Source of the DNA: Candidatus Methylacidiphilales bacterium
GTDB taxonomy: Bacteria > Verrucomicrobiota > Verrucomicrobiia > Methylacidiphilales > CAZTYG01
Assembly: GCA_033875315.1 (NCBI GenBank)
Contig: JANRJG010000003.1
Coordinates: 186,001-250,000, forward strand
Length of the DNA: 64,000 nt
Direction of reading: 5' to 3'
Numbering within the stretch: position 1 is the stretch's first letter; every line of letters begins with the position of its first letter. Position numbers and translations under genes: made by a program. A model generated the notes under the pieces. The model was not told the origin of the DNA and ran no database searches. It saw only the letters and a program-made list of their open reading frames with translations. Positions 56,407 through 62,597 of this stretch are shown here, in pieces.

Positions 56407-56946
56407 ATGAAAACATCCACTCCCTTCATCCGCCTCTCCCACCTGCACCTGGCACTCCCCGCCCTGGCCGCGCTCCTCGTGTTTGCCGGTTGTGCCAAAT
56501 CGGTCAAAGGCACCGGCGGTGCCGGCGGCGGTATCGCCGGTGAGGACATTTACGACACTGGAGCCCTTCCCGGTCGCGGCGATTTCAATCCCGAGAACGC
56601 CGATTACTCCACCCTCGCCGCCTACACGGTCTACTTCGCCTTCGACAGCTACGCCATCGACGGCAGTGAGCGTCCCAAGTTGGAGAAAATCGCCAACTGG
56701 ATGAACGAGAACAGCAGCGCCCGCATCCTGGTGGCCGGGCACACCGATTCCCGCGGTACCATCCAGTACAACGTCGGCCTCGGCGAACGTCGTTCCCTGG
56801 CCATCCGCACCTACCTGATGGGACTGGGCGTCGATGGCAACCGCCTGCACACCATTTCCTACGGCGAGGAACGCCCCGCCCAGCAGGGCGAAAACGAGTC
56901 GGCCTACGCCGCCAACCGCCGTGCCGCCTGCGGCGTCCTGCGCTGA
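56407..56946 (+). CDS. pal: Pal peptidoglycan-associated lipoprotein
   Basis: The ATG at 56407 gives a 179-residue lipoprotein with signal and lipobox (LLVFAGC, acyl Cys before AKS). A Gly-rich linker follows, then the OmpA-type domain with VYFAFDSYAIDG and VAGHTDSRGTIQYNVGLGERR, the peptidoglycan-binding Asp and Arg positions. It anchors the outer membrane to peptidoglycan and closes the tol cluster. A strong terminator follows at 56963. Confidence 0.97.
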   Translation: MKTSTPFIRLSHLHLALPALAALLVFAGCAKSVKGTGGAGGGIAGEDIYDTGALPGRGDFNPENADYSTLAAYTVYFAFDSYAIDGSERPKLEKIANWMNENSSARILVAGHTDSRGTIQYNVGLGERRSLAIRTYLMGLGVDGNRLHTISYGEERPAQQGENESAYAANRRAACGVLR

Positions 56947-57014: not shown

Positions 57015-57045
57015 CTTCGCGCACTTCGCGTGCTTCGCGGTTAAT
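57015..57045 (+). repeat. CTTCGCG leader box before waaF
   Basis: Three CTTCGCG units close together (CTTCGCGCACTTCGCG, then CTTCGCGGTTAAT) end 11 bases before the ATG. Similar boxes precede yjbQ, xth and murJ. Confidence 0.6.
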
Positions 57046-57056
57046 CTCCCGCCTTC

Positions 57057-58048
57057 ATGAACCTGCTCCTGCGCAGCCCCAACTGGCTCGGCGATGCCGT
57101 CATCGGCCTCCCCGCCGTGCAGGCCCTCCAACACAAACTCCCCCCCGGGTCGCGCTTCAGCGTGCTCACCCCGGGCAAGTTGGCCGACTTCTGGAAGATC
57201 GTTCCCGGCATCGACCACGTCCTCACCGTCGACCCCAACCTCTGGATCACCGCCGATTCCCTCCGTCCCTTCCACTTCGATACCGCCCTCATCTTCCCCA
57301 ATTCCCTTCGCACCGCCGCCGAGCCCTGGCTGGCCCGCATCCCCCGCCGTATCGGCTTCAAGGGCCACCAACGCCGCTGGCTCCTCACCGACGTTGTTCC
57401 GAAATACAACCGCGCCCAAGGCCTGCGCCACCAAAGCCTCGACTACCTGGATCTGGTCTCAACGCTTCTCAAGGCCTCAAATCCAATCAGCAATCAGCAA
57501 TCAGCAATTTCACCCCCCTGTCCTCCGTAGCCTTGGCGAAGGAGGGTCTGTCCTCGGTTCCCTACCTCGCCCTCTGCCCGGGTGCCGAATACGGCCCCGC
57601 CAAACGCTGGCCCGCCAAACGTTTCGCCGAAGCCGCCAACCGCATCGCCGCAGAAAACAATCTTGAAGTCATCCTCCTCGGGGCCGAGATCGACCGCCCC
57701 ACCTGCCGGGAAGTCGCCCACCTCCTCACCGTTCCCCATCACAACCTGGCGGGCGAAACCTCGCTGCGTGAATTTCTGGGCTGGCTGGCCCATGCCAGCT
57801 GCGTCCTTTGCAACGACAGCGGGGCCATGCATGTGGCCGCGATGTTCGGCCGCCCCGGTGCCGCCATTTTCGGCTCCACCGAACCCCGATTGACCGGGCC
57901 CATCACCGACACCATCCAGGTCGTCCGCGAACATGTCCCCTGCTCCCCCTGCTTCCTGCGTGAATGCCCGATCGACTTCCGCTGCATGAACGCTGTTACC
58001 GTCGATCATCTCCTGCATACTCCATCCCTTAATCACTCAATCACCTAA
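57057..58048 (+). pseudogene. waaF: Heptosyltransferase (WaaF-like), frame-split at a 7-base tandem repeat
   Basis: The first part (57057-57530) has MNLLLRSPNWLGDAVIGLPA, the usual WaaF start. The second, in another frame, has LCPGAEYGPAKRWPAKRFAE and NDSGAMHVAAMFGRPGAAI, and ends at 58048. GT9 enzymes add L-glycero-D-manno-heptose to the LPS inner core. At 57485-57505 there are three copies of AATCAGC, then a CCTCCGTAGCC / GGCGAAGGAGG palindrome. With three copies the first frame ends at a TAG; with four copies both parts would be in one frame of about 332 codons without a stop. It is either a phase-variable gene seen in the off state or a disrupted one. Confidence 0.85.
57485..57505 (+). 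repeat. Heptanucleotide tandem repeat in waaF
   Basis: Three tandem AATCAGC units followed by a partial AAT. As 7 is not a multiple of 3, each gain or loss changes the frame; a gain of one restores it. Confidence 0.85.
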
Positions 58049-58055
58049 TCCCTCC

Positions 58056-58799
58056 ATGCAAATCTCCGCCTGCATCATCACCCTGAACGAAGAAGCCAAC
58101 CTCGCCCGTTGCCTCGACAGCCTCAAAGACATCGCTGATGAAATCATCATCGTGGACAGCGGCAGCACCGACCGCACCCCGTTCATCGCCACCGACCACA
58201 ACGCCCGCTTCATCCGCCATGAGTGGGAGGGCTACGTGGGGCAGAAGAACTTCGCCCTCTCCAAAGCCACCCATGAATGGGTCCTGAGCATCGACGCCGA
58301 CGAGGAACTTTCCCCGGGGCTGCGGGCGGAACTGATCAAGATCAAGCCCACGGTGGTTCCCTCTTCCATGGCCGGATTTTCCATGCCCCGGGTGGTCTTC
58401 TTTGAAAACACCTGGATCCGTTTCGGCGACTGGTATCCCGATGTGCTGGTCCGTCTCTTCCGCAAGGGGAGCGGGAAATTTGCAGGTGGAGCAGTGCATG
58501 AACGGTTGGAATTGAACGGCGAAATCCAACCCCTGGTCGGAGAACTCATCCATCATTCCTTCAAGGACGAGGCCGATTACCGCGGGCGGATGGAACACTA
58601 TTCCACCCTCTGGGCCCAAAGCGCCAAGGCGGAGGGCAAGAAAGCCGGACCCCTGACCCCGATCACCCACGCCCTCTGGCGTTTCCTCCGTTCCTATCTC
58701 CTCAAAGGCGGCATCAAGGGCGGTCTCCTCGGCCTCCGCCTGGCCCGCCTCCAGGCCGCCGAAGTTTTCATGAAATACCGCAAGCTCCAGAAAATCTGA
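58056..58799 (+). CDS. Family 2 glycosyltransferase, LPS-core type
   Basis: The 247-residue protein has SACIITLNEEANLARCL, the metal motif in SIDADEELS and, further on, IRFGDWYPDVLVRLFRKG and VHERLELNG, close to the WaaE/KdtX-like beta-glucosyltransferases that act on heptose in LPS core. The predicted reaction is addition of a sugar from a nucleotide donor on the cytosolic face. It starts 8 bases after the end of waaF, and the two are likely on one mRNA. A short C-terminal region (LRSYLLKGGIKGGLLGLRL) may touch the membrane. Confidence 0.92.
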   Translation: MQISACIITLNEEANLARCLDSLKDIADEIIIVDSGSTDRTPFIATDHNARFIRHEWEGYVGQKNFALSKATHEWVLSIDADEELSPGLRAELIKIKPTVVPSSMAGFSMPRVVFFENTWIRFGDWYPDVLVRLFRKGSGKFAGGAVHERLELNGEIQPLVGELIHHSFKDEADYRGRMEHYSTLWAQSAKAEGKKAGPLTPITHALWRFLRSYLLKGGIKGGLLGLRLARLQAAEVFMKYRKLQKI

Positions 58800-61025: not shown

Positions 61026-61204
61026 AGCGGAAAAGACAGTTGCACCGCGGAGTGCGCGAAGTGAAAACACCAGGCGATAACAGTCTGGTAAAGCACCTCA
61101 AAGACATCGTCCTTGCGTTCAGCAAAATCGCATCCCTGGCTGATTCAAACCCTGAATAACTTCGCGCCCTTCGCGATCTTCGCGGTGAAAGTTATCGCAC
61201 CCGG
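61026..61204. other. Gap between infA and ychF with CTTCGCG boxes
   Basis: Two boxes in opposite orientation are seen: one at 61036-61062 (minus) and one at 61160-61190 (plus; CTTCGCGCCCTTCGCG, then CTTCGCGGTGAAA). No gene starts just after either one. Confidence 0.5.
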
Positions 61205-62516: not shown

Positions 62517-62597
62517 AACACTTATGTCAGCACAGCCTCCGGCTTTCAGCCCCCACTTAAAACTTAATTCTTAAAACTTAAAACTCGCCCACCCCCA

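Follow-up and report, generated by a model that had tools for sequence, protein, structure and literature searches.

A heptanucleotide array at the frame break of an interrupted waaF gene, and the recurrence of such arrays in Verrucomicrobiota

Introduction

In S. aureus, a low-copy 'ttta' repeat inside icaC gives reversible switching that takes place at low frequency (PMC4117637). The heptanucleotides of H. influenzae hmw1A and hmw2A are of a different kind, lying approximately 100 bp upstream, in the promoters, in 13-38 copies (PMC2651432). Heptamers are over-represented in bacterial genomes, where they are mainly intergenic, and around four units is typical in Xanthomonas (PMC4692102, PMC4679880); the dispersed heptanucleotides described include GGGAATC in Xanthomonas, GGGGA(C/T)T in Nostoc (PMC4692102) and TAACTGA in Beggiatoaceae (PMC4679880). 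No earlier report of heptamer arrays in Verrucomicrobiota was found in the literature searched, which left out most subscription papers.

Here we analyse a stretch of 64,000 nucleotides (the window) from a Candidatus Methylacidiphilales genome, in which a waaF gene is broken at a heptanucleotide array. The locus resembles icaC, likewise a surface-polysaccharide gene whose coding region contains a low-copy repeat in which a change of one unit shifts the frame (PMC4117637). However, the unit is of 4 nt in icaC and 7 in waaF, reversibility has been measured for icaC whereas waaF is known from its sequence, and no genome-wide class of arrays has been described for icaC. The SSR contingency loci of H. 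influenzae likewise target LPS genes and include heptanucleotides as candidate phase-variation repeats (PMC2651432), but the hmw repeats are promoter-borne and of many copies, in contrast to the 3.57 copies within the coding region of the window waaF. The Verrucomicrobiota arrays share a strict period of 7 and a genome-wide scatter with those of Xanthomonas, Nostoc and Beggiatoaceae, and their copy number is that of Xanthomonas; the repeats of these three groups, however, lie almost entirely between genes and have a single main unit in each genome, whereas in Verrucomicrobiota there are many units, often in protein-coding loops.

Results and Discussion

The interrupted waaF gene

The features of the waaF region, in window coordinates, are as follows:
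56425-56946, + strand: Pal-like lipoprotein gene, upstream of waaF, at the end of a tolQ-tolB-pal cluster
57057-57530, + strand: WaaF N-terminal half, an ORF of 157 codons from ATG 57057 to TAG 57528-57530; TIGR02195 positions 2-122 of 339 (E 1e-15), 1psw residues 1-121
57484-57508, + strand: perfect period-7 array CAATCAG x3.57, 25 nt, at the frame break, with AATCAGC x3 inside it; no shuffle yields one
57513-57518, + strand: run of six C (C6), lying 5 nt 3' of the array, where a 1-nt indel could have arisen instead
57522-57545, + strand: imperfect palindrome CCTCCGTAGCCTTGGCGAAGGAGG, the other repeat-like insert of the linker
57533-58048, + strand: WaaF C-terminal half, in another frame; TIGR02195 positions 169-332 of 339 (141.5 bits), 1psw residues 178-306
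58056-58799, + strand: GT2-family glycosyltransferase gene, directly downstream of waaF; PF00535, E 2e-23

The LPS heptosyltransferase II profile TIGR02195 (339 positions, cut-off 134.6 bits) is matched here not over its full length in a single frame but by two halves in two frames, the second of which exceeds the cut-off on its own and runs in a frame that the ORF analysis found open across the junction to its end at 58048. Judged by its sequence, this is an interrupted WaaF gene, given the two frames and the score of the C half. The E. coli WaaF structure 1psw aligns to the halves over both GT-B domains, differing in being a single intact chain free of repeats, and the limits of the profile and structure matches place the break in the interdomain linker. 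Between the same alignment ends, this linker measures 92 nt in the window as opposed to 60-69 nt in relatives of the order, whose waaF genes are in a single frame and mostly of 324-350 aa. The window linker, longer by 23-32 nt, contains both the array and CCTCCGTAGCCTTGGCGAAGGAGG; this palindrome recurs once elsewhere in the genome, differing at one position of the 22-nt search pattern. Apart from the frame break there is no further stop, and both halves are conserved as in the relatives; the decayed downstream sequence that a preliminary description of this locus had named as evidence against its proposal is not seen, the C half being undecayed.

That description placed three AATCAGC copies at the frame break, and they are found at 57485-57505 within the longer perfect stretch. 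As 15 Markov shuffles of the window that kept its dinucleotide frequencies (approximately 960 kb) yielded no perfect array of period 5-12, the array is not due to chance, and its tandem pair, AATCAGCAATCAGC, occurs nowhere else in the 3.15-Mb genome. From start to stop the gene measures 992 nt, that is 2 mod 3. One further heptamer gives 999 nt and a WaaF of 332 aa with no stop, so the statement that one extra copy would join the halves into a protein of normal length was accurate; an array of a single copy also closes the frame, at 325 aa, as does any +1 change at the junction. With the C6 run so close by, frame arithmetic alone thus does not single out the heptamer. The locus nevertheless has two features of an SSR contingency locus: a unit of 7, no multiple of 3, within the reading frame, and a gene otherwise intact that a single unit would toggle (992+7=999, both halves matching TIGR02195).

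A second broken gene in the same genome

The source genome comprises 3.15 Mb in 42 contigs, and its neighbours place it within Verrucomicrobiota. In a census of perfect arrays of at least 24 nt, made with a codon-usage scan over 850 kb of it, ten period-7 arrays and one period-8 array were found; the heptamer arrays hold strictly to their period and occupy many sites, which is the pattern of dispersed heptanucleotide arrays. Only two of the ten lie inside genes, waaF and an allophanate hydrolase gene, and both are frame breaks, while the remaining eight have no clear coding frame on both sides and those inspected closely are intergenic.

The allophanate hydrolase gene, present as a single copy, is cut by a perfect AAATCAG x3.57 array (L259:686-710; contig C26:100686-100710), with TIGR02713 positions 3-288 ending at 100690 and positions 289-562 starting at 100705 in a different frame. 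Since these profile positions are consecutive, the extra sequence is of approximately 14 nt, i.e., two units. More AATCAG-like heptamers precede the gene, and others are found within its C part, where they are in frame. The two broken genes agree in array length (25 nt) and in the sense of the shift, and no homopolymer of at least 5 is present at the allophanate hydrolase junction. A second break at an array of identical length without such a homopolymer links the break to the array and not to chance or the C6 run, and we regard it as the best evidence that the arrays mark the cause; a C6 indel as sole cause is weakened accordingly. A frame-transition scan, which was crude and not exhaustive, gave 46 candidates without a nearby ATG/GTG, most of which look like gene ends or antisense frames, and the only breaks verified by profile among them were those of waaF and the allophanate hydrolase.

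It could be argued that the breaks are errors of assembly or consensus, a unit having been dropped by the assembler or one C from the C6 run. The arrays in both broken genes are exactly 25 nt, the source is apparently a draft genome and the C6 run adjoins the waaF array, all of which fit such an artefact. However, arrays of 33 and 37 nt were assembled elsewhere in this genome, which weakens the case for a systematic collapse of arrays; the allophanate hydrolase break is free of homopolymers of 5 or more, and no other broken gene was verified by profile in the scan (not exhaustive). We hold an artefact to be improbable.

A biological alternative is irreversible loss, in which a generic process of heptamer formation or insertion in the phylum has recently inactivated both genes and no switching takes place. 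The dispersal of arrays over all kinds of genes and spacers and the two unrelated functions affected speak for it, as does the insert of approximately 14 nt relative to the allophanate hydrolase family profile, which is as expected if one copy had become three. However, both genes are without other lesions, their halves are well conserved and the LPS core genes are otherwise present, and we consider permanent loss unlikely.

To the reading that we favour we would give roughly even chances: a copy-number frameshift at a dispersed heptamer array that leaves the consensus waaF off, probably with a low rate of reversal as in icaC, and that would constitute a low-copy contingency locus. The breaks in waaF and the allophanate hydrolase gene would then be real changes in copy number, three units standing where one or four keep the frame, and slippage would be their cause. 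With waaF off in the sequenced consensus, the LPS core would be heptose-truncated, and slipped-strand mispairing could restore the gene by adding or removing units, because everything else in it is intact. The rate would probably be low, as there are only 3-4 units; a fast switch is not expected with numbers so far below the 13-38 copies of hmw. Behaviour of the icaC type is the best single reading of the locus, and it is possible, though unproven, that waaF is a true on/off switch and that the phase variation is adaptive.

The LPS gene set

Another waaF elsewhere in the genome, for which a search had been proposed, is not present: there are six GT9 matches and the broken gene alone is the waaF orthologue. 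The best of the others is WaaC-like (TIGR02193, 146 bits, below the cut-off of 185). WaaA was found, together with an RfaE domain II-like protein of 162 bits (below the cut-off of 181.5), and from the presence of these three proteins it is likely that the organism makes an LPS with Kdo, and probably with heptose.

Heptamer arrays in waaF of other Verrucomicrobiota

Among 80 waaF loci of public genomes (710 kb), 10 of the 11 perfect period-7 arrays lie inside waaF, in units that include AAAATTC, GAATCCG, CAGAATC, CAGAAGC, GCCCAAC, TCTCAAC and ACGCTCA. The best-sampled family shows the same preference, with arrays in 19 of 47 waaF genes (47 genomes) and 24 arrays in 59 kb of waaF as opposed to one in the 588 kb that flank it. 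A binomial test of this enrichment gives p = 3e-24, which overstates the strength of the evidence, as the alignment indicates that loops and arrays are partly inherited and thus not all independent events. In all 47 members examined waaF is in frame. Dispersed AATCNGC repeats, frequently in runs of four units, occur in 31 of 49 genomes from this family.

Arrays occupy three sites in waaF of this family, one close to the start codon, one in a loop that precedes the final N-domain helix and one in a C-domain loop. In the window, in L045 and L091 and, in degenerate form, in L049, the array is at yet another site, the true interdomain linker. In the N-domain loop the length is constant across species while the heptamer unit differs (alignment). 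An AlphaFold model of one array-bearing WaaF of the family (mean pLDDT 87) predicts the N-domain-loop array to be disordered (residues 142-153 below 50), and in the same model the C-domain array covers a helix end, a loop and a strand. The arrays appear to belong to a dispersed heptanucleotide class typical of Verrucomicrobiota, for which the loops of waaF may be a preferred host.

In these loops one unit has been replaced by another, with no change in period or loop length. On a bolder reading, an active heptamer system found throughout the phylum rewrites protein loops with its non-triplet period, and waaF, as its commonest host, must pass through off states again and again; the outcome would be an LPS on/off switch that is conserved among free-living bacteria although its repeat sequences keep changing. 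We see this as a rather doubtful extension.

Other repeat-like peptides occur in frame in WaaF loops (L155-L172, L194), namely VAADVSRRVTSNGRVLTNA and DAGVSPAS...GETPAP, which we take to resemble intergenic repeats inserted in genes. In L045, L049, L091 and many members of the class, waaF lies within an open frame of approximately 640-720 aa, the N-terminal extension of which resembles an acyltransferase-type gene, either fused or overlapping.

Arrays outside waaF

Random regions, waaF loci included, contained 15 period-7 arrays in 399 kb of one genome (G090) and 8 in 118 kb of another (G060), nearly all of them within long ORFs (L200-L219, L230-L239). The genes that carry them in frame encode ThiD, an aminotransferase, leucyl-tRNA synthetase, ProA, HypF, FolC, Mfd and an rRNA-modifying enzyme, and the idea that heptamer arrays are specific to waaF was rejected on these grounds. 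Although waaF is enriched, arrays are also found in LeuRS, ProA, FolC, Mfd and ThiD of relatives, so tolerant loops receive heptamer arrays, and perhaps short repeats of other kinds, through a general process.

This bears on the proposal that the window array turns the LPS core on and off. It is supported by the arithmetic of the frame, the absence of another waaF, the undecayed downstream half, the recurrence of heptamers in waaF of other lineages and the second gene broken alike. The part that is not supported is that the array exists in order to switch LPS: the copies are few, housekeeping genes of related genomes carry similar arrays in frame, the other broken gene has a metabolic function and no waaF of the best-sampled family is out of frame. 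A general array-placing process weakens this claim, and in-frame arrays in presumably essential genes of relatives indicate that arrays can arise without a role in switching.

The more unusual result than switching is that non-triplet arrays are kept in frame in housekeeping genes as well as in waaF loops. Period-7 arrays recur within the reading frame of a core LPS gene across an environmental phylum and within housekeeping enzymes. If reads carry mixed copy numbers, LPS switching becomes testable in uncultured bacteria, with phage resistance as the obvious benefit; if they do not, the questions become how non-triplet arrays enter essential genes yet stay in frame, and why the unit is always seven.

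Split waaF genes in relatives

One relative has a comparable split: in L118:4361-5426 (genome G071, apparently the same as G204) waaF appears to be divided in two, a spacer that contains CTACAGC-like heptamers lying at the interdomain linker, and the C half has its own ATG. Another species of the same genus, G234, has a short C-half frame of 187 aa (C164:14633-15079). Among the approximately 155 matches listed, the window aside, the other short waaF frames reflect a contig edge and an N gap: L023 (G042), apparently the former, and L028, an N-filled scaffold gap, were both rejected as splits. As nearly all of the matches listed are unsplit, splits of waaF are rare, and in the one genus apparently stable.

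Such persistence raises the question of gene fission, in which the former linker would now serve as a spacer and a GT-B enzyme would be assembled from separately made N and C chains. A glycosyltransferase of two chains is known in Alg13/Alg14, the L118 and G234 genes suggest that splits can persist, and a TTG (57533) lies 3 nt past the TAG in the window. However, this TTG is the only candidate restart for the C half and neither a good start nor a Shine-Dalgarno sequence is visible for it in the window, and the allophanate hydrolase, an unrelated enzyme, is cut in the middle of a domain; fission of the window gene is accordingly very improbable.

Other repeats in the window

Three further kinds of short repeat were observed in the window. 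An imperfect heptamer array, ACTTAAA x4.4, at 62555-62585 lies immediately upstream (reverse strand) of the YchF gene region. At 58019-58057 an imperfect 16-nt tandem repeat, ACTCCATCACCTAATC, runs from the extreme end of waaF into the start of the next gene. Finally, the spacers at 57015-57039 and 61160-61184 contain two similar 9-nt tandem repeats (CTTCGCGCA and CTTCGCGAC, respectively), which probably represent a dispersed intergenic element.
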